42,294 bases of DNA. Origin: Fibrobacter sp. Lineage in GTDB: Bacteria > Fibrobacterota > Fibrobacteria > Fibrobacterales > Fibrobacteraceae. Where the stretch lies: the NCBI GenBank assembly GCA_024398995.1, contig JAKSIE010000015.1:1-42294 (forward strand). Direction: 5' to 3'. Positions 15,783-41,175 of the stretch are shown piece after piece (position 1 is the first letter of the stretch; each line of letters starts with the position of its first letter). The notes beneath the pieces are model-generated. The model saw nothing but the letters and a program-made list of their open reading frames with translations. It did no database searches and was not told where the DNA came from. The position numbers and the translations under genes are program-made.

Positions 15783-15849
15783 TGGATAATTCATCCATAG
15801 GGATTTTTTAAAAAGGTTTCTTTTTGTTAACCCAAAGTCTATCTTATAA
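15783..15849 (+). promoter_or_regulatory. shared operator and promoter, TIGR02147 operon
   Basis: Operator TGGATA-ATT-CATCCA at 15783-15797 (centre 15790) and -10-like TTATAA at 15844-15849, 56.5 bases away. The tetranucleotide at +49 is CTAT rather than GRTA. This puts the putative regulator gene under the same element as the enzyme genes. Confidence 0.65.
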
Positions 15850-15864
15850 ATGTTAAATTTGGGT
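15830..15864. promoter_or_regulatory. inverted repeat bracketing the -10 of the TIGR02147 operon
   Basis: ACCCAAA (15830-15836) and TTTGGGT (15858-15864) are exact inverted repeats flanking the -10 and the likely transcription start, nine bases before the ATG. It could be a repressor site or a leader hairpin; no clear Shine-Dalgarno is visible here. Confidence 0.4.
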
Positions 15865-15872
15865 AAATAAAT

Positions 15873-16733
15873 ATGGTTACTTTTTCTGACATTGCAGATT
15901 ACCGCGACTTCCTGAAGTCTTACTACGATCGCAAGAAAGCCGAGATGCCTTTCTACAGTTATCGTATGATGGGTGACAAGCTGGGATTGGATTCCAGCTA
16001 CTTGTATCGCGTTCTGCAGAAGAAGCAGCATCTGCCTGCTCATGCCCTGGCCTCCGCCAAGGAAATCTTGAATTTGGCTGGTCGCGAAGCCGAGTACTTC
16101 GACCTGCTTTACACGGCCTCTGTCACAAAGGACAAGGCAAAACGTGAAGAACTTATTGCCAAGGCTCTCTCTCTGAGAGATGTTGAACGTCATAGCCTCC
16201 AGGCTGCAGAACTGAAGGTTCTGGAAAACTGGTGGATCCCGGCAGTCCGTGCCTACCTGGAACTGAATGGCGGCGTGGTGAATCTTAAGCAGATCGCTCA
16301 CGATATCTGCCCGCCGATTACCGAAGCCCAGGCCCAGGAAGCTATTGACACCCTTATGGACGTGGGTCTCGTCAAGAAGATGGCTTCGGGCCGTCTGGCT
16401 TTGACGGATGCACATTTGACTGCGGGTGGCCCTGAAAAGAAGGTTGCTGTACGCAAATTCCAGAAGCAAGTGCTCGCTTTGGCTAGCGATTCTCTTGAAA
16501 ATGTCCCTGTGGACGAAAGAAATATTTCTACACTTACCTTATCCGTTGATCAAGCTTGCTTTGACGACCTGGGTGACATGTTGCGCGAATTCAGACGTTT
16601 GGTACAGAAACGCGTTGACAGTTCTAAGAACCCCGACCGTGTAATGCAGCTTTCTATGGCATTCTATCCTGTAGCTCGCAAGGGTGGGGTAGCTTCTGCT
16701 AAGGAAACGGTGGATGGAACAAAGGGAGTTTAA
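15873..16733 (+). CDS. TIGR02147 (DUF4423) family protein, putative transcriptional regulator
   Basis: This 286-residue protein belongs to TIGR02147, a family defined on Fibrobacter succinogenes paralogues. The N-terminus (YRDFLKSYYDRKKAEM..FYSYRMMGDKLGLDSSYLYRVLQKKQHLPAHALASAKEILNL, residues about 8-70) reads like an XRE-type helix-turn-helix: a short helix, LGLDSSYLYRVL as turn and recognition helix, then a packing helix. The remainder (LLYTASVTKDKAKREEL and on) is the family's helical DUF4423 region. The stop codon is directly followed by the lipoprotein ATG, so the two are one operon. Its promoter has the same operator as the enzyme genes, plus a CRP-like site. DNA binding is my inference; the family has no function that I know of. 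Confidence 0.88.
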   Translation: MVTFSDIADYRDFLKSYYDRKKAEMPFYSYRMMGDKLGLDSSYLYRVLQKKQHLPAHALASAKEILNLAGREAEYFDLLYTASVTKDKAKREELIAKALSLRDVERHSLQAAELKVLENWWIPAVRAYLELNGGVVNLKQIAHDICPPITEAQAQEAIDTLMDVGLVKKMASGRLALTDAHLTAGGPEKKVAVRKFQKQVLALASDSLENVPVDERNISTLTLSVDQACFDDLGDMLREFRRLVQKRVDSSKNPDRVMQLSMAFYPVARKGGVASAKETVDGTKGV

Positions 16734-17996
16734 ATGAAGTTTAGGGTGTGTCATATTGGTCTGGCGGCTGTGGGCGTTTGCACGCTCCTTACAGGCTGTG
16801 GTCTGATCGATGGTCGCGGTCAGGCATCCGGATCCTTTGAGACGGAAAATTCCGTAGCGCTGAGTGTCCAGCTGGCTGACGGTTCTCCGGCTGCACGCGC
16901 CTTGGTTAAGGTGCGTCCCGCAGATTACCTGGCTGGTACTTCTAATATTGATGGCGTCGACGAAACTGATTTTAAGGATTCTGTAGCAGGCATCTACAAT
17001 GGCAGGACGGACGAGCAGGGCCGGTTGAACGTTCCCAAGCTGAAGTCTGGCAAGTATGCTGTAGAAGTCGAAGGCAAGAAAAACAAGGGCTTTGCCCGTT
17101 TTGATGTCTCTCCGACAAAATGCGATTCTCTTGATGTGGACATGGATAAGTCTGGCTCCATGACAGGCCAGGTTGTGATGCCTGCAGGCTTGAATTCTGT
17201 GAAGGTGGGTATCCGTGGTCTTGACTACGTGGTCGAAACCGATTCCCTGGGCAACTTCGAGTTCGAAGACTTGCCGGCTGGTAACTTCAAGGCTGTTGGC
17301 TTTACCTACTCCACTTCCGATTACGTCAACGAAGAAGGTGAAACGGATACTTACGAAAGCTTCCAGGCCTTCGGTGTTACGAGTGTTACCGTGAAGTCCG
17401 ACGAGACTAAGGAAGACGTGATGATCGGCTACCGCAAGGAAGTGGTGAAGGACACCTTGCCGTATATCATGCTTTCTGATTTCGAGGACAGTACCTACGG
17501 CTGGTATACTTCCTACTCTAGATTCTCAAAGATGAAGCTCAATGCGGTCGCTGGTGGTGGTAAGTACGGCCTGGTTGCCCATATGGAATGCCATACCGAC
17601 TCTCTGTACACCTGGACCATGATGGGACGTAACTTTGCCAAGTACCACGACTTCAGCGACTTGGATTCCGTGGTTCTCTATGCCAAGGGAAGCAACCCTG
17701 AAGGCGATTCCATGTGGGTCAGCGTTTCCTTTGATGTTCATGCTGATAGCGCCTCGGGTTACGAATCTGGTAAGGCGTGGGCCCATGTGGGCATTACCGA
17801 CGAATGGAACAAGATCGTTGTAACGCCTAAGAACTTCCAGCCTGCGGATTCCAACAAGACCGGTGGTAACTTGGGCTGGGACAAGGTGAAGGACCATATC
17901 AACAGCTTTGGTATCTTTGCTGGTCGTACTCACACTGGTGATTTCGAGGTCTGGATTGACGACGTTGAAATCTTCGGTGTCAAGGGACTGGAATAA
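16734..17996 (+). CDS. lipoprotein with carboxypeptidase-like repeats and a CBM11/CIA30-like domain
   Basis: A lipoprotein signal ends in LLTGC (Cys22). Two beta-sandwich segments of the carboxypeptidase regulatory-like type follow: about 38-130 (VALSVQLADGSPAARALVKV..GRTDEQGRLNVPKLKSGKYAVEV) and about 135-230 (GSMTGQVVMPAGLNSVKV..GNFEFEDLPAGNFKAVG). The last ~170 residues (LSDFEDSTYGWYT..LDSVVLYAKGS..EWNKIVVTPKNFQ..DFEVWIDDVEIFG) look like a jelly-roll carbohydrate-binding domain of the CBM11 or CIA30 kind. No catalytic motif is seen. It starts directly after the TIGR02147 stop with AAAGGGAG upstream, so it is co-translated. It may bind oligosaccharides at the cell surface and work with the regulator; that is inference. 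Confidence 0.8.
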   Translation: MKFRVCHIGLAAVGVCTLLTGCGLIDGRGQASGSFETENSVALSVQLADGSPAARALVKVRPADYLAGTSNIDGVDETDFKDSVAGIYNGRTDEQGRLNVPKLKSGKYAVEVEGKKNKGFARFDVSPTKCDSLDVDMDKSGSMTGQVVMPAGLNSVKVGIRGLDYVVETDSLGNFEFEDLPAGNFKAVGFTYSTSDYVNEEGETDTYESFQAFGVTSVTVKSDETKEDVMIGYRKEVVKDTLPYIMLSDFEDSTYGWYTSYSRFSKMKLNAVAGGGKYGLVAHMECHTDSLYTWTMMGRNFAKYHDFSDLDSVVLYAKGSNPEGDSMWVSVSFDVHADSASGYESGKAWAHVGITDEWNKIVVTPKNFQPADSNKTGGNLGWDKVKDHINSFGIFAGRTHTGDFEVWIDDVEIFGVKGLE

Positions 17997-18020
17997 TCTC
18001 CGTTCCAAATGTGAAATTGC

Positions 18021-18053
18021 AAAGCCCTCCCCTTTCGGGGAGGGCTTTTTTTG
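18021..18053 (+). terminator. strong terminator after the lipoprotein operon
   Basis: AAAGCCCTCCCC and GGGGAGGGCTTT pair perfectly around TTTC and run into seven T. Confidence 0.97.
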
Positions 18054-18072
18054 TCCACATTTTTGCAGTATC

Positions 18073-18142
18073 TATGGACAACTTGTCCATAGAATATGTT
18101 TTTGAAAGTAAAAAAAGTCATTCTTTTCAAGATATCTTTAGG
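18073..18142 (+). promoter_or_regulatory. shared operator and promoter, GH43 gene 1
   Basis: TATGGACAACTTGTCCATA (18073-18091) is a perfect 19-bp palindrome, the best copy of the shared operator (core centre 18082). GATA begins exactly 49 bases after the centre and the -10-like TTTAGG is at 18137-18142. Confidence 0.75.
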
Positions 18143-18186
18143 ATTAAGATTAAGGCTGGGTGTATGGTTTGCCTTAAGGAGTGACT

Positions 18187-20433
18187 ATGAATCTTTTTAA
18201 GAAAGTTCTCGGAGCGACGTTTGTTGCGGGTCTGACCACCTTTGGCTTGGCTTACAATCCGATTTCTACTTATCATTATCTGGCTGACCCTGCGGCTGCC
18301 GCAGATGATGAGTATTTCTACATCATCACTGACTCCGATGATCCGGCTCCGTACAATTCCAATGGCTATGAAATCAAGGCTCTTTACGGTTTCCGTTCCA
18401 AGGATATGCAGAACTGGACTGACTTTGGCATTATTTACGATGCCCGTCAGGTTGAGGGCGTAGGTGCTATCTGGGCTTCCGGTATCGCCAAGAATCCTAA
18501 TGATGGTCGTCTCTATATCGTGTTCCCCGATGGCGGTGGCGGCGGCATTGTACTGATTGGTGCCGATAGCCTTGCTGGCCCGTGGACCAACCCTCTTTCT
18601 GGCGGCAAGCGCTTGATTGGTTGGGGTGGCGGAGCCATTTCCGGTTGTGATAATATTGGATGGTGCTTCGACCCCGCGATCTTCTACGATGATAACGGTG
18701 ACGGCTACTTTACCTTTGGTGGTGGTAGCAGTGATCAGCGCCCGGCTCGCGACAACGACAATAACATCTTCAATATCTACAAGCTCGACAAGGATATGAA
18801 GAGCTATAACCCCAATACCAAGGTGGAATTGAAGATTGGTGGCCCCAAGGCTATGGAAGCCTCCTATATCCATAAGTACAAAGACAATTATTACCTGTCT
18901 TACAGTACTGCGGACTTGCGTATTGCCTACGGTATGTCCAAGAGCCCCACGGGTCCTTACACCTATACAGGCATTTTTATGGGTAACCCCAATATTGGTG
19001 GCCAGAATATCAATGCCAACAACAATAACCACCACGGTATTGCTGAATTCAAGGGCCATTGGTATGTGACCTATCACGACCGCCGTATTTCCAATGGTTA
19101 CGATGGCTTGGAAAAAATTCCTGCCGAAGATGGCATGCCCAACCCGAATCCGGCATATCACCGTAGCGTAAGCATTGATGAATTCTACTATAATGCTGAC
19201 GGCACCATGAAGAGCCTGACCTTTACCAAGGAAGGTCCGGAACAGATTGAAAACTTCGATCCGTACGATTGGTATCCGGCTCTGACCAGCTCCAAGCAGA
19301 GAGGCATACGTAGCCGCTCCACCTGGGCTCCAGGCAGGGTTGCATCCTCCATTTTGCTGCCTCTTTCTACCAAGGAATCCTGGATCCGCGTAAGTGGCGT
19401 TGATTTCGGTAAGGGGGCAACAGGCTTTACTGTTGAAGCCGCAAGTACTGCCGACAACAACAAGATTGAAATCCACAAGGGTTCTGCAACTGGCGCCTTG
19501 GCTGGTACCTGTACTCTTAAGAAGACTGGCTCCAAGAACACCTATGCAGAAAACAAGTGCGAAGTTGACGGCCTTTCCGGTATTGTTGATTACGTGTTCA
19601 TGGTGTTCAAGGGTTCCCAGGATTCTACCATGGCCATCAAGGCATGGGGCTTTGAAGGTAGCGGCACCACTCCTCCGGAACCGCAGAAGGCTTTCAACGC
19701 AACCAATACCCCGTGGGCAATTCCTGGTACCATTCAGGCAGAAGACTTTGACGTTCCGGGCACTGGCCGCGGTAGCGATCTCAAGAGCTTCTACGATCAG
19801 GATTCCGAAAATCACGGCGATAGCGACTACCGTAAGGATGACGCTCCTTCCGTAGATTTGTACAAGAAGTCCAACAACCGCGTTGTTGTGGGCTACATCC
19901 AGAAGGATGAATGGCTGGAATACACCGTGAACGTTGCCGAAGATGGTGACTACACTGTATTCGCCGCAGTTGCCTCTGATGGCGGCTCTAGCTTCAGCCT
20001 CTCTGTAGATGAAAAGGTCATTGCTGAAATGGACGTTCCCAAGGCTGTGAAGGCTGAAGGCGATACTGCCCAGAATTTTGATGACTACGGAAAGGTCAGC
20101 GCCAATGTGAAGCTTACCAAGGGTGAACACGTTTTGCGCTTCACTGCAACCGGCGACTGGTTCGATATTGACTACATCAATTTCGTGAAGGGTGAAAACG
20201 CTAAGGACGATAATCCGCTGGGCGACAAGGAAACTTCATCTATCGCTTCTGTCAAGTTCAACGCCGTTGCTACCCAGGAATTCAAGGTGTTTAGCCTTCA
20301 GGGCAAATTGATGGGAACGGTGGATCTTGCTGGCCGCACTGCTGGCAAGGCACTCCGTGAAGCTGGCTACAGCCGTGGCGCCTATATGCTCCGCAGCGAT
20401 AGCAAGCAGTTCATTGCAACTACCGAAAAGTAG
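18187..20433 (+). CDS. secreted GH43 enzyme with two CBM6-type domains and FPm-1-like tail
   Basis: After a signal peptide (about 1-20), a five-bladed GH43 domain spans about 20-355. The expected acidic residues are Asp34 (YLADPAAAADDEYF), Asp162 (CFDPAIFYDDNGDG) and Glu224 (KAMEASYIH). A first beta-sandwich (about 357-494) sits where GH43 enzymes of the xylosidase/arabinofuranosidase type often carry a CBM6. A second, clearly CBM6-like module is at about 505-650 (IPGTIQAEDFD..EWLEYTVNV..WFDIDYINFVKG). A short tail (about 684-748) ends GAYMLRSDSKQFIATTEK. AAGGAG five bases before the ATG at 18187 decides against the GTG at 18181. Likely an arabinofuranosidase or xylosidase on arabinoxylan; substrate not resolved. 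Confidence 0.9.
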   Translation: MNLFKKVLGATFVAGLTTFGLAYNPISTYHYLADPAAAADDEYFYIITDSDDPAPYNSNGYEIKALYGFRSKDMQNWTDFGIIYDARQVEGVGAIWASGIAKNPNDGRLYIVFPDGGGGGIVLIGADSLAGPWTNPLSGGKRLIGWGGGAISGCDNIGWCFDPAIFYDDNGDGYFTFGGGSSDQRPARDNDNNIFNIYKLDKDMKSYNPNTKVELKIGGPKAMEASYIHKYKDNYYLSYSTADLRIAYGMSKSPTGPYTYTGIFMGNPNIGGQNINANNNNHHGIAEFKGHWYVTYHDRRISNGYDGLEKIPAEDGMPNPNPAYHRSVSIDEFYYNADGTMKSLTFTKEGPEQIENFDPYDWYPALTSSKQRGIRSRSTWAPGRVASSILLPLSTKESWIRVSGVDFGKGATGFTVEAASTADNNKIEIHKGSATGALAGTCTLKKTGSKNTYAENKCEVDGLSGIVDYVFMVFKGSQDSTMAIKAWGFEGSGTTPPEPQKAFNATNTPWAIPGTIQAEDFDVPGTGRGSDLKSFYDQDSENHGDSDYRKDDAPSVDLYKKSNNRVVVGYIQKDEWLEYTVNVAEDGDYTVFAAVASDGGSSFSLSVDEKVIAEMDVPKAVKAEGDTAQNFDDYGKVSANVKLTKGEHVLRFTATGDWFDIDYINFVKGENAKDDNPLGDKETSSIASVKFNAVATQEFKVFSLQGKLMGTVDLAGRTAGKALREAGYSRGAYMLRSDSKQFIATTEK

Positions 20434-20463
20434 TACAAGAGTCTCCATAAACACACATCCAAA

Positions 20464-20496
20464 AGAAAGGCATCCCGGTTTCGGGGTGCCTTTTTT
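20464..20496 (+). terminator. terminator after GH43 gene 1
   Basis: AAAGGCATCCC and GGGGTGCCTTT pair around GGTTTC and run into six T. Confidence 0.92.
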
Positions 20497-20589
20497 GCTT
20501 TTGGCATGCTGTTTTTGTCTTTTTTATTGTGAAAATTTCAAAAATGGCGAAATTTGAGTAAAAATGCCGTTTTGTAACATAATTGGTTA

Positions 20590-20656
20590 TGGATAATTCG
20601 TCCATGAAGACTGAATTCGCCTAGGTGAAATATTCCGATTTAGAGGATAGTTTATA
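20590..20656 (+). promoter_or_regulatory. shared operator and promoter, GH30 gene
   Basis: Operator TGGATA-ATT-CGTCCA at 20590-20604 (centre 20597), GATA exactly 49 bases after the centre, -10-like TTTATA at 20651-20656, followed by GGTGTG. Confidence 0.72.
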
Positions 20657-20703
20657 GGTGTGAGGGTATAGGTGTGCTCTCGAGAAAAAAGTAGGGATGA
20701 ATT

Positions 20704-22857
20704 ATGTTTGGTAACAAGTTTTTAAAGCTTGGTGTAGCTTGCGCACTTGCAAGCGCCTTTGGAATTTCCGCAAACGCTTCTACCGTCAATGTGAATGTTG
20801 GTGAAGAACACCAGGTAATTCGCGGCTTTGGCGGCATGGTGCATAACCAGTGGCAGGGGGGTGGCGGCCTTTCTGAAGCCGATGCGAAGATTGCCTTTGG
20901 CACTGGCGATGGTACCCTGGGCCTTAACACCCTTCGTATTCCGGTATACGCAAGCTCCAATGACTTCAATAAGGAAGTTCAGGCCGCCAAGTGGGCCAAG
21001 AAGTATGCCGGTGATGATTTTATTCTTTATGCAACTCCTTGGACTTCTCCCTATGCGGGTGCAAACCAGCACATGGCTTCTAGCAACTACCAGAAGTATG
21101 TGGATCACCTGAATAATTTCAATGACTACATGAAGAACCAGGGTGTTCCTCTGTATGCCATTTCCATCAGTAATGAACCGGACTGGTGTGGTGAATGGGC
21201 TTGCTGGTCTGCCGATGAAATTTACAACTTCACCAAGGGCTATGCCGACAAGATGCGCAAGAACGGCGCCAAGGTGATTTCTACCGAATCCTTTGCCTAC
21301 CAGAAAAAGCTTTACGACAACGTTCTGAACGATGCCAATGCTCTCAAGAACTGGGACATTCTTGGTGCCCATTTCTATGCAAGTGATGCAAAGACTGCTG
21401 ATTCCTGGTTCGCCTACTCCCTGGCCGATCAGAAGAAGGTGGAACGTTGGATGACCGAACACTACACCGAAAGCCAGGGCAGTGGTAACTACTGGCGTAC
21501 CGTGATGCGCACTGGTGACCAGGCAAATGCCTCCAAGGTAGACACCGTCCGCGCAATGGACGTGGGTTACGAAATTCATCGCGCCATGGTGGTGGGCAAT
21601 TTCAATCAGTACACCTGGTGGTATATTCGTCGTTGCTATGGCCTGATCATGGAAAAGGATTTCGGCAACAAGCTGCAGATTCCCTCCAATGAAATTGGCA
21701 AGATTTCCAAGCGTGGCTATATCTTGAGTCAGTTCGCTCGCTTTATCCGCCCCGGTGCAATCCGCGTTGGTGCAACTGCCAAGCCCGAAGATCACGTTTT
21801 CGCCTCTGCCTATAAAAGCAAGGATGGCGACTCCACTATCGTTGTTCTTGTAAACCGTGACTATGGCAAGTCCAAGACTGTTACCGTTAACGTGCAGGGC
21901 GCCGATGTTCAGTCCTTCCACGTATACACCACTTCTGAAGCAAAGAATGCCAAGTACGAAGGTGAAGTGGAAGCCAAGAATGGCTCCGTGACCATTACCA
22001 TGGAATCCGGCGCTACCAATAAGGACTGTATCGTGACCTTGGTTGGCGTAGGCAAGCAGATTGTTATTCCGCAGGAACCCTTTGGCGGCAATGCCTGGGC
22101 AATTCCGGGCAAGATTCAGGCTGAAGACTTCGACGTTTCTGGTTCCGGCAAGGATGAAAACGGCAACAGCAACATTTCCTACTATGATAACGATTCCGAA
22201 AATCATGGCAACAGCGACTACCGCAAGGATACCGGCGTTGACATCTACGAAAAGAAGTTTGGCAAGGTTATCGGTTACAACCAGGTCGGCGAATGGTTGG
22301 AATATACCGTGGATGTGAAAAAGGCTGGAGACTATACCATGTTTGCATACGTTGCATCCAGCAACGGTACCGCAAGTTTCCAGATTCTTATGGATAACAA
22401 GGCCATTACTGATACCATCGTTGTTCCTAAGACTGTGACAGCAACCGAAGGCGATTTTGAGGAATTCGGCAAGATTCAGAGAGATGTTACCCTCACCGCA
22501 GGCAAGCACGTGATGAAGTTCCTGGTGACTGGCGACTGGATGGATGTAGACTACTTCACCTTTGTCGAAGGTAAGGGCGCCACAGACCCAGAACCGGATA
22601 CTACAGCAACGACTACTCCTGAAAAGGGTGAAGAAAATCCGGGCGAAAATCCAGCAGCAATTGCTCCGGTTCAGTTCCAGGCAGTTTCCGCTTCCGCTGA
22701 ATTTGGCATCTATGACATGTCTGGCGCCTTCCTGGGTTCCGTCACTGCACAGAACAAGGTGGAACTCCGCAGCAAGGCCGCTTCCGTCGTAGATCGCTCT
22801 GGCGTATACATGGTAAAGTCTGCCGGTCACGTCACTAACCTGTCTGTCGTCAAGTAA
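20704..22857 (+). CDS. GH30 subfamily 8 glucuronoxylanase with CBM6 and FPm-1-like tail
   Basis: A signal peptide (about 1-25) leads into a GH30 (beta/alpha)8 domain with its beta-sandwich (about 27-455). The acid/base Glu158 is in ISISNEPDW and the nucleophile Glu252 in WMTEHYTE. WWYIRRCYG (about 305-313) matches the subfamily 8 signature, in which an Arg and a Tyr grip the 4-O-methylglucuronic acid side chain. The enzyme should therefore cut xylan one residue from each glucuronate-decorated xylose. A CBM6 module (about 470-625, IPGKIQAEDFDVSG..VGEWLEYTVDV..WMDVDYFTFVEG) is followed by an acidic Pro/Thr/Glu linker and a C-terminal tail ending GVYMVKSAGHVTNLSVVK. One of the most certain activity calls in the window. 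Confidence 0.95.
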   Translation: MFGNKFLKLGVACALASAFGISANASTVNVNVGEEHQVIRGFGGMVHNQWQGGGGLSEADAKIAFGTGDGTLGLNTLRIPVYASSNDFNKEVQAAKWAKKYAGDDFILYATPWTSPYAGANQHMASSNYQKYVDHLNNFNDYMKNQGVPLYAISISNEPDWCGEWACWSADEIYNFTKGYADKMRKNGAKVISTESFAYQKKLYDNVLNDANALKNWDILGAHFYASDAKTADSWFAYSLADQKKVERWMTEHYTESQGSGNYWRTVMRTGDQANASKVDTVRAMDVGYEIHRAMVVGNFNQYTWWYIRRCYGLIMEKDFGNKLQIPSNEIGKISKRGYILSQFARFIRPGAIRVGATAKPEDHVFASAYKSKDGDSTIVVLVNRDYGKSKTVTVNVQGADVQSFHVYTTSEAKNAKYEGEVEAKNGSVTITMESGATNKDCIVTLVGVGKQIVIPQEPFGGNAWAIPGKIQAEDFDVSGSGKDENGNSNISYYDNDSENHGNSDYRKDTGVDIYEKKFGKVIGYNQVGEWLEYTVDVKKAGDYTMFAYVASSNGTASFQILMDNKAITDTIVVPKTVTATEGDFEEFGKIQRDVTLTAGKHVMKFLVTGDWMDVDYFTFVEGKGATDPEPDTTATTTPEKGEENPGENPAAIAPVQFQAVSASAEFGIYDMSGAFLGSVTAQNKVELRSKAASVVDRSGVYMVKSAGHVTNLSVVK

Positions 22858-22898
22858 AGCAAGATTTTTCTCTCTCAAAATCTTCCATAAACACAATG

Positions 22899-22935
22899 GA
22901 CGCTCCCCCTCTTAGAGCGGGGGACGTCTTTTTTA
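22899..22935 (+). terminator. terminator after the GH30 gene
   Basis: GACG-TCCCCC and GGGGGA-CGTC pair with one bulged C and are followed by six T. The loop is large, so some read-through into the esterase gene is possible. Confidence 0.8.
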
Positions 22936-22949
22936 ATTAGTGGTGTTTC

Positions 22950-23026
22950 TGGACAACGCTTTTTTTTAATTACAACGTTTTTGTGCAAATGAGATGTTCA
23001 AACGAACGCTCATGGTGCTATTTTAT
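22950..23026 (+). promoter_or_regulatory. degenerate promoter region of CE6 gene 1, half operator only
   Basis: Only one half-site, TGGACA (22950-22955), is present, and a -10-like TTTTAT (23021-23026) after GGTGCTA is about 66.5 bases from the expected dyad centre, nine to ten bases more than in the other promoters. This gene may rely on read-through from GH30 or be controlled differently. Confidence 0.4.
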
Positions 23027-23053
23027 GTGGGCAATATTTGCAAGGAGTTATAA

Positions 23054-24742: not shown

Positions 24743-24767
24743 ATTTCCGCATTTTGAGCTAGAAATG

Positions 24768-24799
24768 AGGGACTCGGCCGTGCTGAGCCCCTTTTTTTT
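24768..24799 (+). terminator. terminator after CE6 gene 1
   Basis: An imperfect stem (GGG-CTC-GC with GC-GAG-CCC) closes on CGT and is followed by eight T. Confidence 0.85.
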
Positions 24800-24821
24800 G
24801 CGTAAAAAAAGGCTTTTTTTA

Positions 24822-24888
24822 TTGACAAAATGTCAATGAGAATGCGTTGCTCTTTATGCTAAAAAGTGTTTTGGGGAGGTAATTTATA
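24822..24888 (+). promoter_or_regulatory. shared operator and promoter, CE6 gene 2
   Basis: ATTGACA-AAA-TGTCAAT is a perfect dyad (core 24822-24836, centre 24829). GGTA starts exactly 49 bases after the centre and TTTATA is at 24883-24888. Confidence 0.75.
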
Positions 24889-24926
24889 CATAGAAATATT
24901 GGGAAAATAAACAAAGGTGTGTTGTA

Positions 24927-26573
24927 ATGAACTTCTTTCGTAAAATGACAGCTGCAGCTTGCTGCATGTTTGGTTTGACGATGCTTGCTTCCCATGCAGA
25001 AGCTGCCCCCAATCCGAATTTCCACATTTATATTGCTTATGGCCAGTCCAATATGGCGGGTAACGGTGAAATTAACCCTGCTGTGGACCAGGCAACCAAT
25101 CCCAAGAATTTTTTGATGCTTGCCTCCCATAATGCAAACGCAGCTAGCCGTACTGGTTCTACAACCCAGTCCATTAAGACTGGCGAATGGTATCCGGCAA
25201 TTCCTCCCATGTTCCATGCCTTTGAACAGCTTTCTCCGGCGGATTACTTTGGTCGCGCCATGGTGGATTCTTTGCCGGGTGTGACTGTGGGTATTATTCC
25301 TGTGGCCGTCGGTGGCGTCAGCATTCGCGCCTTCCTTTTGGATCAGTATGCCGCCTATTTCGATGGCGATGGCAGGAGCTTTAAGGGCTGGGCCGGTGAC
25401 TACGGTGGAAACCCCATGGGTCGCATTTTGGAACTGGGTAAGAAGGCTAAGGAAGTGGGTGTTATCAAGGGCGTCATTTTCCATCAGGGTGAAAGCGACG
25501 GTGTTGACGATAATTGGCGTAATCGCGTCTATGCCTCCTACAAGACCATTATTAATGAACTTGATCTGGACGAAAATGAGGTCCCCTTTGTGGCTGGCGA
25601 AATGCTGCAGGCTCAGGGTGCTTGCTGCGGCAGCAAGAATGGTGGCATTGCCTTGCTGAAGAACAAGTTCAAGAAGTTTGGTCTGGCATCTTCCGCAGGT
25701 CTCCAGGGTAACGGAAAGGATCCCTATCACTTTGGCCGTAGCGGTGTCATTGAACTGGGCAAGCGTTACGCTTCTGAAATGCTGAAACTCATTGACAAGA
25801 CTATTGATCCTAATGCTCCTGCTGTTGACCTGGTAAACCCGGAAAATTCCGTAGTTCCTGATTTGCCTCCTGAAGAATATGGCCCCTACTATGGAGAACC
25901 CATGACCATCCCTGGCCAGATTCAGGCTGAGGATTACAACAAGGGTGGCGCAGGCAAGGCCTACTATGACCTGGATAAGGGCAATAGCGAAGGCAAGTAC
26001 CGTAAGGACGACGTGGACGTAAAGCAGCCCAACAAGGGTATGGCTGTAGGTTCCTGCCGAAAGGGTGAATGGCTCAAGTACACCGTAAAGGTTGAAGAAA
26101 CCGGTGAATACGAAATTTCTGCTCTTATTGCAGGCGACAACAAGACTGGCGGATTTATCCTCTATATGGACGACGAACGTATCGGTGACGAAATGGTCAA
26201 CGAAGGCCTGGGTTGGGATGACAACGGCTATTCGATGGTAAGTGGCGGCAAGGCAACCTTGAAGGCTGGCGAACACGAACTTAAGCTTGAAATTACCAAT
26301 GACTGGGTTGACATTGACTATGTGGAATTCAAGAAAGCAAGCGCGGTCGTTCCGGAGTCTTCTTCTTCTGCGGTTGTTGGCGGATCCTCCAGTTCCTCTG
26401 AACTGCAAAGCATTCGTGCATCTTTGATTGCTACCGGCTCTTTGAATATGGATAAGGCTCAGTACTTTGATATGCAGGGCAATTGCATTAGCAAATCCGC
26501 TACTAAGACCCAGGGCGTTTACATGGTCCGTGTTCCTGGTGGCAAGACATTTATGGTGCGCACCGAAAAGTAA
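24927..26573 (+). CDS. second CE6 acetyl xylan esterase with CBM6 and tail
   Basis: A signal peptide (about 1-26) is followed by a CE6 esterase domain (about 28-300) with nucleophile Ser41 (YGQSNMAG), Glu189 (HQGESDG) and catalytic His268 (DPYHFG). A CBM6 module (about 325-475: IPGQIQAEDYNKGG..KGEWLKYTVKV..WVDIDYVEFKKA) is followed by a serine-rich linker and a tail with YFDMQGNCISK and GVYMVRVPGGKTFMVRTEK. The 20 residues around the catalytic serine are identical in both esterases, while other parts differ, so this is an older tandem duplication whose copies may prefer different acetyl positions or xylan types. Confidence 0.94.
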   Translation: MNFFRKMTAAACCMFGLTMLASHAEAAPNPNFHIYIAYGQSNMAGNGEINPAVDQATNPKNFLMLASHNANAASRTGSTTQSIKTGEWYPAIPPMFHAFEQLSPADYFGRAMVDSLPGVTVGIIPVAVGGVSIRAFLLDQYAAYFDGDGRSFKGWAGDYGGNPMGRILELGKKAKEVGVIKGVIFHQGESDGVDDNWRNRVYASYKTIINELDLDENEVPFVAGEMLQAQGACCGSKNGGIALLKNKFKKFGLASSAGLQGNGKDPYHFGRSGVIELGKRYASEMLKLIDKTIDPNAPAVDLVNPENSVVPDLPPEEYGPYYGEPMTIPGQIQAEDYNKGGAGKAYYDLDKGNSEGKYRKDDVDVKQPNKGMAVGSCRKGEWLKYTVKVEETGEYEISALIAGDNKTGGFILYMDDERIGDEMVNEGLGWDDNGYSMVSGGKATLKAGEHELKLEITNDWVDIDYVEFKKASAVVPESSSSAVVGGSSSSSELQSIRASLIATGSLNMDKAQYFDMQGNCISKSATKTQGVYMVRVPGGKTFMVRTEK

Positions 26574-26640
26574 AAAGCGTTAGACGGCACCACATCAAGA
26601 CTGGTGTAACATCTAATCAAAAGATCTTACTTCTTTCAGA

Positions 26641-26671: not shown

Positions 26672-26722
26672 CGAAAAGGCGTGTTTTAGTTGTGTTCGGT
26701 CTGTTTTATGGTTGCATTACTT

Positions 26723-26789
26723 TTGAGATTTTCGCAAAAGTTATTGCTGTGTGCAGGTGTAAAATCCTCTTTCGCTTAGGTAATTTATA
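26723..26789 (+). promoter_or_regulatory. degenerate shared operator and promoter, clan GH-A gene
   Basis: TTGAGA-TTT-TCGCAA (26723-26737, centre 26730) is a weaker copy, within a dyad TTTTGAGA/TCGCAAAA matching at 7 of 8 positions. GGTA starts exactly 49 bases after the centre and TTTATA is at 26784-26789. The conserved spacing supports it despite the divergent half-sites. Confidence 0.5.
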
Positions 26790-26845
26790 GTTGTGAACCT
26801 GCGCCTTGGTGTATGGGAGCAGGTCGCGGGTATGATGGGAACGTT

Positions 26846-29103: not shown

Positions 29104-29171
29104 TGGATAATCTGTCCATAGAAACTCCGTTCATACCCTAAAAATATCCCTATTTAGGGAATATTTTTGTA
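29104..29171 (+). promoter_or_regulatory. shared operator and promoter, GH43 gene 2
   Basis: TATGGATAATCTGTCCATA (29102-29120; core 29104-29118, centre 29111) is a near-perfect dyad. AATA begins 49 bases after the centre and the -10-like TTTGTA is at 29166-29171. Confidence 0.7.
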
Positions 29172-29197
29172 CTTGTAAAATCTTAAAATGGATTGGT

Positions 29198-31546: not shown

Positions 31547-31569
31547 AACTTTATTACTCATACATCCAT

Positions 31570-31603
31570 AAAAATCCTCTGCGGTTATGCGGGGGATTTT
31601 TTT
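31570..31603 (+). terminator. terminator after GH43 gene 2
   Basis: AAAATCC-GC and GC-GGATTTT pair with internal mismatches and are followed by seven T. Confidence 0.85.
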
Positions 31604-31653
31604 GAATTTGTACAATTTCGATGGTTTTCCCTGAAATTTGGACAACGGCCCTA

Positions 31654-31721
31654 TTGACAAGTTGTCCATGAGAAATTACCCGGCCTACTTTATTTTTGAT
31701 TCTCGCTTAGGTAGTTTTATA
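31654..31721 (+). promoter_or_regulatory. shared operator and promoter, GH43 gene 3
   Basis: Operator TTGACA-AGT-TGTCCA at 31654-31668 (centre 31661), GGTA exactly 49 bases after the centre, TTTATA at 31716-31721. An extra half-site, TGGACA, lies about 16 bases upstream near 31639-31644. Confidence 0.75.
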
Positions 31722-31747
31722 GAAAAACAAGAAAGAGGGCGATTGGT

Positions 31748-33913
31748 ATGACTTCTAAGAAATCTTTTAAGGGATTAAAGAGACTTTCTGCAGTTTGTGG
31801 CCTGGCCATTTTTGGCCTTGCATCCAATGCGTTGGCGGATAATCCGTTTATTCAGACTTATTATTCCCCGGACCCGGCTCCGGTTGTATTTGGCGATACG
31901 CTTTGCTCTTATTCCGGTAACGACGAAGGCGGTTCCTTCTTTACCATGCACGGCTGGCGCGTGTCCTGCACCACCGATATGGTGAACTGGACCGATATGA
32001 ACACCTTGATTCTTGAAGCTAGCGATTTTAATGGTAGTGCCAAGAAGAATGGCGACTGGGCTGCCCAGGTAATTCGTCGCAATGATACTTATTACTACTA
32101 CGTGACTGTAGAATCTACTCGTGGTGGCCGCGCTATTAATGTGGCTACTTCCAAGAAGAAGGAAGGTCCCTTCAAGGATGCCTTGAACGGCAAGCATTTG
32201 GCAGGCCCCAACTGGGACTACATCGATCCTACCGTATGGATTGATGATGATGGCCAGGCCTACCTCTACTGGGGTAACCCCAAGCTTTACTATTGCCCCC
32301 TTAAGGAAAACATGATTGAATGCGATGGCAAGGAAAAGGTCACCGACATGGCTTCCTTTAACGGCAAGTACACCGAAGGTCCATGGATTCACAAGCGTGG
32401 CAAGAAGTACTACATGATTTACGCCGCCGGTGGTATTCCTGAATCCATTGACTATTCTTGGAGTGATTCTCCTACTGGTCCGTGGACCTACAAGGGCGTG
32501 ATTATGCCCAGTGCCGAACCGGGTGCCGCATTTACGGTTCATTCCGGCATTGTGGATTTCAAGGGCCGCAGCTTCTTCTTCTATCATAACCAGCGCCGTG
32601 TTGCCGGTGCAGGCGGCTATTCCCGTACTTCCGCCGTGGAAGAATTCAAGTGGAATCCCGATGGTACTATTCCCACGATCCGTATGACCGATGACGGTGT
32701 TACCACCCCGATCAAGAACCTGGATCCTTACGAACGTGTGGAAGCCGAAACCAAGGCATGGGTTGGCAACATCACTTTGGATAAGAGCCAGAAGGACGAT
32801 AAGGGCGTTGCATACACCATTATCAAGAACGTGGCTGCCGAAAATGGTTGCGTTTACTTGACTAACATGAACGAAGGCTTCTACACCAAGGTTCGTTCCG
32901 TGGATATGAGCGATGGCGCCGATAAGATTAACGTCGTTACCCGTGGTAAGGGCGGTAAGATGGAACTTCGTTTGGGCGGCCTCACCGGAACACTTTTGGC
33001 AACGATGGATATTCCCGCAAGCACCGCCTGGGAAGAACATTCCTTTGACGTAACTGGCGCCGAAGATGTGGGCGACCTTTACTTTGTGGTGAAGCAGGGT
33101 GGTTTTGATTTTGACTACTGGTACTTGGAATCCGAAAAGACCGCCGTTCCCCAGGAACCGTTCAGCGGCAAGGCTTTCGCAATTCCGGGGCTGATTCAGG
33201 CTGAAGAATTTGACAAGCCGGGTGTGGGTCGCGGTAACAAGTCCTTCCTGGATAACGATGCTGAAAATCATGGCAATAGCGATTTCCGTGCAGAAGACGC
33301 TCCCTCTGTAGACCTTTACAAGAAGGGTGCCGATGGCAAGCGCGTTGTTGTGGGTTACATCCAGAAGGGTGAATGGCTGGAATATACCGTGGATGTCGCT
33401 GAAGATGGTGATTACACTATGTTCGCTGCGGTTGCATCTGCGGGTGGTTCCACCTTTAAGATGTCTATTGATGGCGAAGATATTACAGGTGATGTGGAAG
33501 TCCCGAAGGCAGCCGTGGAAGACAGTTATGACGAATACGGCAAGGTTTCTGCCAACGTGAAACTGACCGCCGGCAAGCATCTCCTCCGCTTTACCGCAAC
33601 CGGCGACTGGTTCGACGTAGACTACTTCAATATCGAAAAGGGTAAGGGTGCAAAGGATAACGTTCCCATTGGTCCTGATGGCGAACCGGTGATTACTCCG
33701 TCGGATACAGTTGTGGCTGCAATCCAGAAGAGTGTCCAGTTTGACTTTGCAAATCAGTCCTTCGACGTGTTCAACATGTTGGGCAAGAAGCTGGGCACGG
33801 TGCAGTTGAATGGCGAATCCGCCAAGGAAGCTCTCTCTCAGGCAGGCTTTGGCAAGGGTGTCTACATGCTCCGAAGTGGCAACAAGAGCATGATGGTCAA
33901 CACCTTCAAGTAA
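31748..33913 (+). CDS. secreted GH43 enzyme with two CBM6 domains and FPm-1-like tail
   Basis: After a signal peptide (1-30), the GH43 domain (about 32-320) shows Asp42 (YYSPDPAPVVFGD), Asp160 (YIDPTVWIDDDG) and Glu210 (YTEGPWIHKRG). A first CBM6 (about 330-465, RVEAETKAWVGNI..DFDYWYLES) follows directly, as in GH43-CBM6 arabinofuranosidases acting on arabinoxylan. A second CBM6 (about 476-630) of the type shared by the cluster and a tail (about 655-721, FDVFNMLGKKLGTVQL..GVYMLRSGNKSMMVNTFK) complete the protein. The leader is about 20 nt. Domain order matches GH43 gene 1, so the two are paralogues with diverged catalytic parts. Confidence 0.92.
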   Translation: MTSKKSFKGLKRLSAVCGLAIFGLASNALADNPFIQTYYSPDPAPVVFGDTLCSYSGNDEGGSFFTMHGWRVSCTTDMVNWTDMNTLILEASDFNGSAKKNGDWAAQVIRRNDTYYYYVTVESTRGGRAINVATSKKKEGPFKDALNGKHLAGPNWDYIDPTVWIDDDGQAYLYWGNPKLYYCPLKENMIECDGKEKVTDMASFNGKYTEGPWIHKRGKKYYMIYAAGGIPESIDYSWSDSPTGPWTYKGVIMPSAEPGAAFTVHSGIVDFKGRSFFFYHNQRRVAGAGGYSRTSAVEEFKWNPDGTIPTIRMTDDGVTTPIKNLDPYERVEAETKAWVGNITLDKSQKDDKGVAYTIIKNVAAENGCVYLTNMNEGFYTKVRSVDMSDGADKINVVTRGKGGKMELRLGGLTGTLLATMDIPASTAWEEHSFDVTGAEDVGDLYFVVKQGGFDFDYWYLESEKTAVPQEPFSGKAFAIPGLIQAEEFDKPGVGRGNKSFLDNDAENHGNSDFRAEDAPSVDLYKKGADGKRVVVGYIQKGEWLEYTVDVAEDGDYTMFAAVASAGGSTFKMSIDGEDITGDVEVPKAAVEDSYDEYGKVSANVKLTAGKHLLRFTATGDWFDVDYFNIEKGKGAKDNVPIGPDGEPVITPSDTVVAAIQKSVQFDFANQSFDVFNMLGKKLGTVQLNGESAKEALSQAGFGKGVYMLRSGNKSMMVNTFK

Positions 33914-33976
33914 CAATATGGCATGAATCGCTTTGATGGCGGTTTGTTAACTGCAAAAAGCAACACACTCCTTATG

Positions 33977-34007
33977 GGACCCTCGTTTTTACGAGGGTTC
34001 TTTTTTT
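33977..34007 (+). terminator. terminator after GH43 gene 3
   Basis: GACCCTCG and CGAGGGTTC pair around TTTTTA and run into seven T. Confidence 0.95.
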
Positions 34008-34055
34008 GCAGGCGATATGGTGGCAAAATATACCGGGAAATTGGCTGCGTCGCCG

Positions 34056-34123
34056 TTGACAATCCGTCCATAAGAATGTATTGGCGCGGGTGTTTTTTGT
34101 TTTAATCCAGAGATATTTTTGTA
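34056..34123 (+). promoter_or_regulatory. shared operator and promoter, beta-helix gene
   Basis: Operator TTGACA-ATC-CGTCCA at 34056-34070 (centre 34063), GATA exactly 49 bases after the centre, TTTGTA at 34118-34123, followed by GTGGGTG. Confidence 0.72.
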
Positions 34124-34150
34124 GTGGGTGTAGAAAAAAAGGATGATAAG

Positions 34151-36727
34151 ATGAAAAAAAGTTTCATTTTTGGTTTGATGGCTTTTTTGGGTTGTGCCTC
34201 GACTTCCCTTGCTGCTACTGAGTTCTACGTTTCTCCGTCGGGTAGCGATGCCGCCGAAGGTACCAAGGCCGCTCCTTTCAAGACTATCGAAAAGGCTCAG
34301 AAGGCTGTCCGTGCCATAAATAGCGACATGAAGGAAGATATCAATGTCTATCTTCGCGAAGGCACTTACCAGCTGGCTTCTACTATCAAGTTTGTCAATG
34401 CAGATGGCGGTACCAACGGCTATTACGTAAACTACCAGGCCTATGGCGATGAAACCGTAATTATAACGGGCGGCCTGCCTATCACTGGCTGGGAAGTTTG
34501 CGACGAAGCGGCAAATATCTGGTGCGCCAAGGGTGTTGATGCCCGTTTCCGCCAGATGTACATTAACGGTAAAAAAGCGATTCGCGCCCGTCACCCCAAT
34601 ATTGAAAATGCCGGTGACCATAACTTTAACCGTTTGGCAAAGGTGGACTCCATGGGTCGCGCCTTTGACGTATACACCGACCAGATCAAGACTCTAAAGA
34701 ATATCAAGAAGGCCGAAATCCACTTGATGGTGGCATGGGCCGACCAGGTGCTTCGCCTTGACGATGTCAAGAATAACGGTAATATCTCAAAGCTTATTCC
34801 CCAGGATCCTGAACGTAGTAGGCTTTTTAAGCGTAAGTATCCCATGCTGGGTACTGCCTTTGCAAGTAATCCGCCCAAGCAGCAGGTTTACTATTTGGAA
34901 AACGACTATAACCTGATGGATTCTGAAGGGGAATGGTACCTGGATGAAGACACGAATATTTTGTATTACAAGGCTCGTAAGGGTGAAAACCTAGCCGGTG
35001 CAAATGTGGTCGTTCCCAATCTTGAAACTCTCATTGAAATTCGCGGTGAAAATACCAAGAACAAGTTGCAGAACTTGCGTATCAAGGGCTTGGTGTTTGA
35101 ACATACCAACTATCTGCGCCCCTCCAAGGAAGGTTTCCTTGATTTGCAGGCTGGTCAATTCTCCGTATATGTGGAAGATCGTGGCAACCTGAATTCCAAC
35201 GAGTTTAACTTGTGGCATCCCAATGCTGGCATTATGGTTAGCAATACCAGCCGTCTTGCCATCGAGAACAATATCTTTGCCAACATGGCTGGCACAGGCC
35301 TTGACCTTGAAAGCGGTACCAATGACTCTCGAGTTTTCGGCAACGTCTTTAGGGAAATTGGCGGTTCCGGCATTTCCGTAGGCAAATTTGCTCCGGATTC
35401 CTTGACCGAAATTCATAAAGGCTATAACCCCAGCGACAAGGATGAAATCAGTACCCGAGACTCCATCATGAACAACCTGGTGACCAATACCACCAACGAA
35501 ATTCAGGGTGCTGTAGGTATTGCCGCCGGTTATCCCCGCTACGTAGTAATTGAACATAACGAAGTTTCCTACGCAAATTATTCCGGTATTTCTGTGGGCT
35601 TTGGCTGGACCAAGAAGGAAACTGCCATGACCAACAACCATATCAACTGGAATAACATTCATAATATTGCTCGTTTGCTTTGTGACTCTGGCCCGATTTA
35701 CACTTTGTCTAATCAGGGTACCGGTAGCGAAATCCAGCATAACTATATTCACGACAATGGAACCTCCAAGTGGGCCGACTACTGGAATGTGCCCATCTAT
35801 CTGGATGAAGGCTCCAGCGGCTTTACCGTCAAGGAAAATGTTTTCGTGAATTCTCCTGATGGTGTCGGCCAGAATCAGGCGGGTACCAACACCCTTCAAC
35901 AGCAGTCTGGCTACAAGAACAACGATGTTATTGCAAACGCAGGTCTCCAGGGTGACTACAAGGCTATTGCAAATAAGGTGGTTCCAGAACCGAACTTCGG
36001 TGATGGCATTGTACAGGAACCGTTCAAGTCTGTTATGACTCTTCCGGGTCTTATTGAATTTGAAGATTACGATGTAGGTGGTCAGGGTATCAGTTACAGT
36101 GACAACGATCTTGAAAACCAGGGCAAGGTTTACCGCGAAGACGGTGTGGACGTGGTTGGCCTTGAATGCGCTGACTCCTTGAATACCGTAGACTGCAAGG
36201 GCTATGCCATCGGTTACACCAATCCGGGCGAATGGATGGAATACACCGTCAATGCTGTTATTGATGGGGAATATCATTTCAGGTCCCGCGTTGCAAGTGG
36301 ACTTGATGTGGCAAGTTTCCAGTTGTTCATTGATGGCGACGCCGTTTCCGACACAATCAAGATCCCGCAGGGTGAAGATTGGAACACCTATACGGAAGTT
36401 GATGGTAAGACAGAGAAGATTGAAAAGGGCGAACACGTTCTTCGTGTAAAGATTACCGGAACCTATGGCAACCTGGACTGGATCCAGTTCGCTTTGACCG
36501 AGGAAGAACTAGCCATTAATCCTAGCCAGGATCGATTCCACATGGACTTCATGGTCGGAGCTCAGCAGTATCGTGTATACAGCATGAACGGCACCCTTCT
36601 TGGAACCATTTTCGCAGACTCCCACGAGGTGATGTCCAAGACCCGTCAGTTTGTTAAGCAGAGTGGCGTGTATATCGTGAAGGCTTCCCGTGGCAACCAA
36701 ATGTTCCGGGTAAACGTGTTAAAATAG
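34151..36727 (+). CDS. secreted right-handed beta-helix enzyme (GH120-like) with CBM6 and tail
   Basis: Signal peptide about 1-22, then ATEFYVSPSGSDAAEGTKAAPFKTIEKAQ, a standard opening of beta-helix carbohydrate enzymes. Many short N-rich helix turns follow (IENNIFANM, VFGNVFREIGGSGISV, IEHNEVSYANYSGISVG, IQHNYIHDNG) up to about residue 600. Conserved acids in CDSGPIYTLSNQ and YLDEGSSG could be the catalytic pair. GH120 beta-xylosidase is my best guess from fold and context; a polysaccharide lyase or another beta-helix family is possible. A CBM6 (about 628-780, LPGLIEFEDYDVGG..GNLDWIQFAL) and tail (about 795-858) follow. The ATG at 34151 is chosen; the in-frame start at 34124 would lie before the inferred transcription start. 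Confidence 0.85.
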   Translation: MKKSFIFGLMAFLGCASTSLAATEFYVSPSGSDAAEGTKAAPFKTIEKAQKAVRAINSDMKEDINVYLREGTYQLASTIKFVNADGGTNGYYVNYQAYGDETVIITGGLPITGWEVCDEAANIWCAKGVDARFRQMYINGKKAIRARHPNIENAGDHNFNRLAKVDSMGRAFDVYTDQIKTLKNIKKAEIHLMVAWADQVLRLDDVKNNGNISKLIPQDPERSRLFKRKYPMLGTAFASNPPKQQVYYLENDYNLMDSEGEWYLDEDTNILYYKARKGENLAGANVVVPNLETLIEIRGENTKNKLQNLRIKGLVFEHTNYLRPSKEGFLDLQAGQFSVYVEDRGNLNSNEFNLWHPNAGIMVSNTSRLAIENNIFANMAGTGLDLESGTNDSRVFGNVFREIGGSGISVGKFAPDSLTEIHKGYNPSDKDEISTRDSIMNNLVTNTTNEIQGAVGIAAGYPRYVVIEHNEVSYANYSGISVGFGWTKKETAMTNNHINWNNIHNIARLLCDSGPIYTLSNQGTGSEIQHNYIHDNGTSKWADYWNVPIYLDEGSSGFTVKENVFVNSPDGVGQNQAGTNTLQQQSGYKNNDVIANAGLQGDYKAIANKVVPEPNFGDGIVQEPFKSVMTLPGLIEFEDYDVGGQGISYSDNDLENQGKVYREDGVDVVGLECADSLNTVDCKGYAIGYTNPGEWMEYTVNAVIDGEYHFRSRVASGLDVASFQLFIDGDAVSDTIKIPQGEDWNTYTEVDGKTEKIEKGEHVLRVKITGTYGNLDWIQFALTEEELAINPSQDRFHMDFMVGAQQYRVYSMNGTLLGTIFADSHEVMSKTRQFVKQSGVYIVKASRGNQMFRVNVLK

Positions 36728-36784
36728 CGTTTTAGAACGAAAATTACCCGAAAAAAGGTTGATTTTCGGCATAAAATGCTGTTG

Positions 36785-36852
36785 TTGACAAGTTATCCAT
36801 GGGAATATTTGAAGAATAAAAAATTTTGGTTTTAACTTTTGGTAATTTTATA
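36785..36852 (+). promoter_or_regulatory. orphan copy of the shared operator and promoter
   Basis: Operator TTGACA-AGT-TATCCA at 36785-36799 (centre 36792), GGTA exactly 49 bases after the centre, TTTATA at 36847-36852. No reading frame follows; a terminator ends about 80 bases later, and a separate copy of the element for the next gene lies at 36977. Confidence 0.65.
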
Positions 36853-36858
36853 ACGTAA

Positions 36859-36933
36859 AAGTTAAAAACTTAAAAAATTCCTACATCACACCCGAAGGCA
36901 CCCTGGGCAATCACGCCCGGGGTGTCTTTTTTT
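36859..36933 (+). ncRNA. possible ~75-nt small RNA from the orphan promoter
   Basis: From the -10 at 36847-36852 a transcript would begin near 36859, cross an A-rich single-stranded stretch and CTACATCACACCCGAA, and end in a strong GC hairpin with a T run. This is the general layout of a small RNA with an intrinsic terminator. Ends are inferred. It may instead be the joined promoter and terminator of a deleted enzyme gene, or the terminator may serve the upstream beta-helix gene. Confidence 0.3.
36897..36933 (+). terminator. strong terminator after the orphan promoter
   Basis: GGCACCCTGGGC and GCCCGGGGTGTC form a 12-bp stem with two wobbles around AATCAC and run into seven T. Confidence 0.95.
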
Positions 36934-36976
36934 ATCAAATCGGTCATTGCCGTCGCGCTAGTTCGTCACTTGACCT

Positions 36977-40990
<4,014 letters not shown>

Positions 40991-41044
40991 TAGCTAAAAA
41001 CTTACTCCTTTTCATAATTGCCTTTTTCTATAGAATTATGAAAG

Positions 41045-41076
41045 AAAAAGTCATCGGTTCGCCGGTGACTTTTTTC
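41045..41076 (+). terminator. terminator after the GH2 gene
   Basis: AAAAAGTCATCGG and CCGGTGACTTTTT pair around TTCG with one wobble and run into T residues. Confidence 0.96.
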
Positions 41077-41107
41077 GTTTTTTTGAGCCAATTTTGAAGT
41101 TACACCT

Positions 41108-41175
41108 TTGACAAACTGTCCACGAGACTTTTTTTGTTTCTGTTGGAATCGTGCTTCTAAAGGGGTATCTTTAAG
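41108..41175 (+). promoter_or_regulatory. shared operator and promoter, GH95 gene
   Basis: Operator TTGACA-AAC-TGTCCA at 41108-41122 (centre 41115), GGTA exactly 49 bases after the centre, TTTAAG at 41170-41175, followed by ATTGTG. Confidence 0.72.

Follow-up and report, generated by a model that had tools for sequence, protein, structure and literature searches.

Regulons governed by an activator that binds upstream of the promoter are already known, and Fibrobacter is a leading degrader of plant fibre in herbivore guts. We analysed a 42,294-nucleotide stretch of DNA from a Fibrobacter sp. (hereafter the window), which is the entire contig C32 (JAKSIE010000015.1) from a draft genome of 2.82 Mb assembled into 124 contigs. 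The window carries an array of genes for hemicellulose-degrading enzymes, most of them preceded by a copy of the same short inverted repeat, the dyad, with a −10-like box at a fixed distance downstream. We consider it likely, from the arrangement of these sequences, that about 20 genes of this genome, mostly encoding fibre enzymes, share an activator operator, most probably that of the TIGR02147/DUF4423 protein whose gene heads the array. What would be new is the regulator family, the operator and the layout of one promoter per gene.

The architecture resembles class I activation of the −61.5 type, as found with CRP in Escherichia coli: a single palindrome lies at about −61 to −63, the −10 box is phased with it, and there is no good −35. 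Unlike the E. coli CRP sites, the element described here is a 15-bp, odd-centred TKGAYA-N3-YRTCMA dyad, and the protein proposed to bind it belongs to another family. In gene content, the array is similar to the cluster Fisuc_1762-1804 of F. succinogenes S85, in which GH43, CE6 and GH10 enzymes carry CBM6 and a basic terminal module; the published description of that cluster, in the available text of the S85 genome paper, names neither an operator nor a TIGR02147 protein (PMC3079729). The same text leaves the regulation of the cellulase genes as an unanswered question, with few regulators nearby, and offers as a guess two metal-dependent response regulators in a shared cellulase/hemicellulase cluster (PMC3079729). 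A first-pass annotation of the window had known of no publication describing the element in Fibrobacter, and this agrees with the open-licence literature as far as its available text goes, where we found no such operator, regulon or promoter map (PMC3079729, PMC6851124, PMC12546842). TIGR02147 is not named in that literature, and DUF4423 occurs in a single paper, within a protein table.

The first-pass annotation had listed eleven inverted repeats by their centres, and all eleven were located there, on the + strand. Ten of them match the strict pattern TKGAYANNNYRTCMA, that is T(T/G)GAYA-N3-YRTCMA, without mismatch. They are centred on 15790 (15783..15797, TGGATAATTCATCCA, before the TIGR02147 gene and also kept upstream of its orthologues), 18082 (18075..18089), 20597 (20590..20604), 24829 (24822..24836), 29111 (29104..29118), 31661 (31654..31668), 34063 (34056..34070), 36792 (36785..36799, an orphan copy with no open reading frame before a terminator), 36984 (36977..36991) and 41115 (41108..41122). 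The eleventh copy, TTGAGATTTTCGCAA, centred on 26730 (26723..26737), has three mismatches to the strict pattern; dyads with three mismatches are no more frequent than chance would have it, and taken alone this one does not rise above chance. It nevertheless looks like a genuine variant site, because its TTG...GCAA ends and a box in place are kept in four GH39 orthologues.

The second part of the element is a TANNTT box that begins 51 bases after the dyad centre (+51) at every copy in the window, the variant included, except at 15790, where it begins at +50. The boxes, again on the + strand, are TATCTT (15840..15845) for 15790, TATCTT (18133..18138) for 18082, TAGTTT (20648..20653) for 20597, TAATTT (24880..24885) for 24829, TAATTT (26781..26786) for 26730, TATTTT (29162..29167) for 29111, TAGTTT (31712..31717) for 31661, TATTTT (34114..34119) for 34063, TAATTT (36843..36848) for the orphan 36792, TAAGTT (37035..37040) for 36984 and TATCTT (41166..41171) for 41115. 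Palindromic matches were scored on both strands, so that row counts exceed counts of places; the ten strict places of the window give 17 strand-views, with TANNTT at +51 in nine and at +50 in one, against a mean of 0.11 at other single offsets. The GRTA or AATA tetranucleotide that had been noticed at +49 in nine copies is indeed present, in ten of the eleven. The suspicion that the 26730 copy was mis-centred, with AAGT near 26779, came from a misreading, since GGTA at 26779 fits. The 15790 copy had rightly been singled out as the misfit, being the sole shifted copy, by one base. Over the whole genome, the +50/+51 spacing holds in all 21 copies that we read as promoters, the variant included. 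When these 21 sites are aligned, T occurs at position 51 in 19, A at 52 in 19, T at 55 in 21 and T at 56 in 20, while positions 49 and 50 are each a purine (G or A) in 18; two of the sites are shifted to +50.

Does this geometry hold for copies outside the window? Such copies formed no part of the first-pass observations and provide an independent test. Random occurrence of the motif throughout the genome, which had been named as the result that would speak against the element, was rejected: the strict pattern gave 24 + 22 rows in the genome itself against 4 + 2 for the reversed control, and 2040 rows against 448 for the reversed pattern in 61 genomes of the genus. The rows of this genome correspond to 29 places, ten in the window and 19 outside. 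Ten of the outside places are found a short way upstream of a gene, and a TANNTT box follows each of these, at +51 in nine and at +50 in one. The other nine sit within open frames 134 to 1507 codons long; the box accompanies one of them, on one strand. If the 19 places are left unsorted and viewed on both strands, two matches fall at +50 and nine at +51, whereas any other offset averages 0.14. TANNTT was found in 5 of 920 instances at other offsets near 20 strict promoter sites; at this background rate, ten boxes in ten at +50/+51 would arise by chance with a probability of about 2e-20, or of 5e-13 if a generous rate of 0.03 is assumed.

The element is also conserved between genomes. A footprint search, which did not require a strict dyad, covered 55 gene-genome pairs, from which CE6a (5 pairs), GH43a in G009 (a 36% match) and seven G024 genes (at contig ends) were omitted. 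The 42 orthologous promoters that remained represent ten genes and five relatives; the dyad is strict in 35, has one mismatch in three and has two or three mismatches in four, all of them GH39; TANNTT begins at +51 in 35 and at +50 in seven. For the 38 promoters of equal spacing, identity is 89-90% in the dyad arms, 51-54% in the spacer and 41% in the sequence upstream. With ten boxes in ten at the outside places, 16 in 24 dyad places of G003 (a complete relative of another species) and 35 strict dyads among 42 orthologous promoters, the original proposal of a shared operator-promoter element of fixed geometry is borne out.

Conservation also bears on which hexamer is the −10. The first-pass annotation had centred a −10-like hexamer at +56.5-57.5; the conserved hexamer is TANNTT, from +51 to +56, with its centre at +53.5. 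Orthologous promoters are 99% identical at +51/+52, 100% at +55/+56 and 56% at +57 to +59, and we set the −10 three to four bases upstream of the earlier choice because of the conservation there and its weakness from +57 to +59. The absence of a consensus −35 was confirmed, the best match to TTGACA at a spacing of 15-19 reaching two to four of six positions at all 21 sites of this genome. We read the box, from its sequence and position, as a sigma70-type −10 without a −35. The usual distance from this hexamer to the transcription start is seven bases, so the start is predicted at about +63 and the dyad centre at about −63. Consequently, the upstream, class I-like activator position that had been proposed would stand, with the centre moved from near −67 to about −63.

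The first-pass annotation named no regulator, and a candidate can be put forward here. The gene at the head of the array (15873..16733, + strand) encodes a 286-residue protein that belongs to the TIGR02147/DUF4423 family, with 192.6 bits for TIGR02147 (cut-off 50) and 97.4 bits for DUF4423/PF14394 (cut-off 30); neither the TIGR02147 (Fsuc_second) nor the DUF4423 model is assigned a function. Modelling and fold comparison predict an XRE-like helix-turn-helix (HTH) at residues 8-90 and a winged helix at 109-190. The nearest folds are those of HigA, SinR and 434 Cro for the N-terminal part and of MarR and ArsR for the C-terminal winged helix, but unlike the regulators of either group the candidate joins both predicted folds in a single chain. 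No Pfam HTH model exceeded its cut-off (HTH_31, E 0.038), and a sequence search of solved structures returned no convincing match, the best being a designed protein at E 0.039.

An orthologue of this regulator candidate, 81-100% identical, is present in 60 of the 61 genomes of the genus. The dyad lies upstream in all 30 orthologue loci of one set (26 strict, four with one mismatch; box at +51 in 25 and at +50 in five) and in all 50 regulator loci from named genomes (33 strict, 17 with one mismatch). The two sets share some genomes, and the 50 named records are mostly metagenome assemblies of Fibrobacter sp. and F. succinogenes; the remainder comprise a single F. intestinalis strain and a few records named as Fibrobacteraceae or at a higher rank. 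At 53-86% identity, the dyad, with at most one mismatch, precedes all 14 homologues, 13 of them from other genera, a second copy in G079 included, and 12 of the 14 have TANNTT at +49 to +52. No dyad was seen at a 44% homologue from another family of the class. The TIGR02147 family counts 16 members in this genome and reaches 40 or more in some relatives; a dyad with fewer than two mismatches precedes none of the 29 paralogues examined, out of 38 from two genomes. In one clade (L074, L077 and similar loci; G004, G045), about 65 bases separate the dyad centre from the regulator's start codon downstream, which puts that codon no more than a few bases from the predicted start of the transcript and suggests a leaderless mRNA.

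The regulator candidate shares its operon with a lipoprotein containing carboxypeptidase-regulatory-like repeats (16734..17996, + strand; weak Pfam matches). This gene stands beside the regulator in all 30 orthologue loci and evolves faster than it. The lipoprotein is a possible substrate-reporting partner.

The distribution of the element follows that of the regulator. In six genomes that possess the orthologue, 44 of 79 dyad places bear the spacing; in four that lack it, two of which belong to the same genus, 1 of 37 does (Fisher p 6e-9, uncorrected for relatedness). The figure of 44 excludes G138 (4 of 11), G127 (1 of 11) and the ten places of the window itself; three regulator-less genomes, G137, G128 and G094, stand outside the comparison, and the count covered 24 of the 25 places listed for G003, 8 of 9 for G140, 11 of 13 for G127 and all those of the others. 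Counts of bare dyads failed to separate genomes with and without the regulator, and the count of dyads with spacing did separate them; G137, for example, has 33 dyad rows against 11 control rows without a regulator.

The genes behind the element are mostly fibre enzymes. In the window, on the + strand, it precedes genes for GH43-CBM6 (18181..20433), GH30-CBM6 (20704..22857), a SASA-type carbohydrate esterase-CBM6 (24927..26573), GH39-like-CBM6 (26813..28813), two further GH43-CBM6 proteins (29198..31546 and 31748..33913), GH141-like-CBM6 (34124..36727, with a likelier start at ATG 34151, after the predicted transcript start), GH2-CBM6 (37007..40990, likelier start ATG 37079) and the beginning of a GH95 gene truncated by the contig end (41213..42294; PF14498 and PF22124). 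Since the array in the relatives G025 and G056 continues into genes like those of contig C54 of the present genome, the fragment is probably part of a long cluster on one strand. Outside the window, the ten targets are three GH10-CBM6, a GH27-CBM6, a GH5-CBM6, a GH43-CBM6, an esterase-CBM4, a PETase-like protein, a CarbopepD_reg protein and a 42-residue open reading frame, eight of the ten being fibre enzymes; overall, 17 of 20 downstream genes or operons encode fibre enzymes or esterases, the orphan copy excluded. The 16 box-bearing sites of G003 precede carbohydrate enzymes in 12 cases, the regulator in one and other genes in three. Among 22 spacing-bearing sites in six genomes of other genera, 16 precede carbohydrate-enzyme or CBM6 proteins, four the regulator, one a protein without a Pfam match and one a guanylate-cyclase-like protein. 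The 42-residue open reading frame (L020:4124-4252, − strand), preceded by the element at L020:4362, has a hydrophobic stretch at its C terminus and matches no Pfam family. Near the locus, the window also encodes an LuxR-type HTH protein with weak helical-repeat matches (11869-13212, − strand), for which no link to the element was seen.

Read directly from the DNA are the dyad and its spacing, the genes that follow it, the conservation of all these, the lack of a −35, and the presence of the dyad at the regulator's orthologues and not at the examined paralogues. We infer from them the binding of the TIGR02147 protein, activation, the transcription start and the inducing signal. A TIGR02147 dimer would bind the dyad near −63, a position that follows from that of the −10, and would touch RNA polymerase from upstream in the manner of a class I activator, which may compensate for the missing −35 and a weak −10. 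The logic of an activator is suggested by a spacing held to one base together with the lack of a −35. Each target gene would thereby be switched on as a unit of its own, and the whole set would be activated together in response to a presumed inducing signal. Positive autoregulation would follow from the presence of this dyad upstream of the regulator-lipoprotein pair itself.

Several observations weigh against this scenario. The first-pass annotation had the element controlling the whole hemicellulase locus; it reaches at least ten promoters beyond, but it is missing from the esterase gene at 23054 (23054-24742), inside the array, and from the orthologues of that gene in G025, G009 and G056. 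The 19 outside places were sorted by eye, five of the ten classed as promoters also lie within open frames (157 to 734 codons) that we judged non-genic, and the total of 11 boxes at the 19 places includes L012:1408, in the 134-codon open frame, which is probably there by chance. The box counts of the footprint and of the named genomes are biased because the scans favour candidates that bear the spacing. Genomes are not independent, since G025 and G056 are close, some relatives are near to the window and loci recur between sets; G106 and G042, which have dyad sequences in common, are probably sisters. Fold matches of the regulator are middling (Z 8.1 and 7.9), with no Foldseek match at an E-value of 0.001 or below. 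The two homologues at 53-54% identity lack TANNTT at +48-53 and have TACAAT or TATACT at +50/+51 instead, and two further ones have TANNTT at +49 or +52. In the co-occurrence comparison, two regulator-less genomes are incomplete (G042, 71%; G140, 83%), and CBM6 matches number 10-37 in the six genomes that have the regulator but 0-2 in the four that lack it. Regulator, operators and enzymes may therefore be lost together, and the comparison establishes a linkage without singling out a unique binder.

This last point leaves room for a regulator encoded elsewhere, for example a CRP/FNR-like protein, with the TIGR02147 gene as a mere target, which we regard as unlikely though worth weighing. Proteins of the CRP type often act in class I fashion near −61.5, the half-site TTGAY resembles that of FNR, and a Crp-type HTH protein was found in 14 of 15 genomes checked. 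Its presence, however, is irrespective of the regulon and extends to G106, G113 and G140, where spacing-bearing dyads are nearly absent. Moreover, the ten strict copies in the window are 15-bp dyads with an odd centre, as against the even spacing of FNR and CRP sites, and the dyad follows the TIGR02147 lineage down to 53% identity while the examined paralogues lack it.

Another question concerns the box, which could be a −7 element of the Bacteroidota type, TAnnTTTG, rather than a sigma70-type −10. This would alter the core promoter and not the regulon. It was our initial reading. Fibrobacterota belong to the FCB (Fibrobacteres-Chlorobi-Bacteroidetes) group, and the full TAnnTTTG is found at six of the 21 sites of this genome (29111, 34063, 36984, L013:2023, L013:4144 and L014:4027). 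The other 15 sites fail it, and +57 to +59 are weakly conserved between orthologues. Ordinary promoters look sigma70-like here: in pooled, partly homologous loci fetched from many whole genomes, TTGACN-TATAWT pairs peak at a spacing of 17 (15 pairs, against 0-5 at other spacings from 10 to 27), with two such pairs at that spacing in the loci of this genome alone. Given the fit at six sites of 21 and this normal TTGACN-N17-TATAWT signal, we demoted the −7 element to an alternative that we hold to be quite improbable.

It is more doubtful still that the TIGR02147 protein represses from the dyad until a signal derived from hemicellulose releases it. Repressors commonly control their own genes, and many of them are found among the nearest folds (HigA, SinR, Cro, MarR and ArsR). 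A repressor, however, has no need of a spacing fixed to one base at some 20 promoters; these promoters lack a −35, and the operator sits upstream of the region where polymerase is expected to make contact and does not cover it. The LysR regulator encoded directly upstream of the array (14713-15684) was dropped as a scarcely credible candidate, its distribution contradicting such a role, since G079 has no match to it and yet keeps 7 of 12 spacing-bearing dyads and a TIGR02147 orthologue, and its orthologues in G003, G014 and G085 are either about 210 kb distant or on a different contig. A LacI-type regulator was dropped too, such proteins being found in none of 15 genomes, some of them incomplete.

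Under the proposed control by the TIGR02147 activator, the orphan copy at 36792 might have a product of its own. The element is followed by about 80 bases without an open reading frame and by a strong terminator hairpin (36785-36935), which would end a putative short transcript at 36855..36935 (+ strand). This copy is shared by G025 and G056, whose flanks diverge upstream and downstream of it, respectively, and it is present in no further fetched locus. Rfam gave nothing at gathering scores over 14600-42294. On the strength of its sequence context, we consider 36855..36935 a candidate small RNA of the regulon.

TIGR02147 paralogues number from a few to dozens in most genomes, and they have upstream words of their own, such as GTGTTC (L082, L084) and TGTRGAC (L083, L085) among the loci L082-L110; GTATCAT adjoins TTGACT-N17-TATATT upstream of others, e.g. 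L092, L098 and L110. These repeated words suggest paralogue-specific operators. We put forward, tentatively, and with somewhat less than even confidence, that TIGR02147/DUF4423 is an unrecognised family of transcription regulators that would organise polysaccharide use across the Fibrobacterota, whose paralogues would read their own short operators, and that the copy described here would be the master activator of hemicellulose use, coupled to an envelope lipoprotein that would help to report substrate and acting through about 20 single-gene promoters and a small RNA. The analysis provides a concrete, testable regulon, with an operator, a spacing and a candidate regulator. It may give the TIGR02147 family a possible function, and it offers a rule by which further hemicellulose genes could be found.

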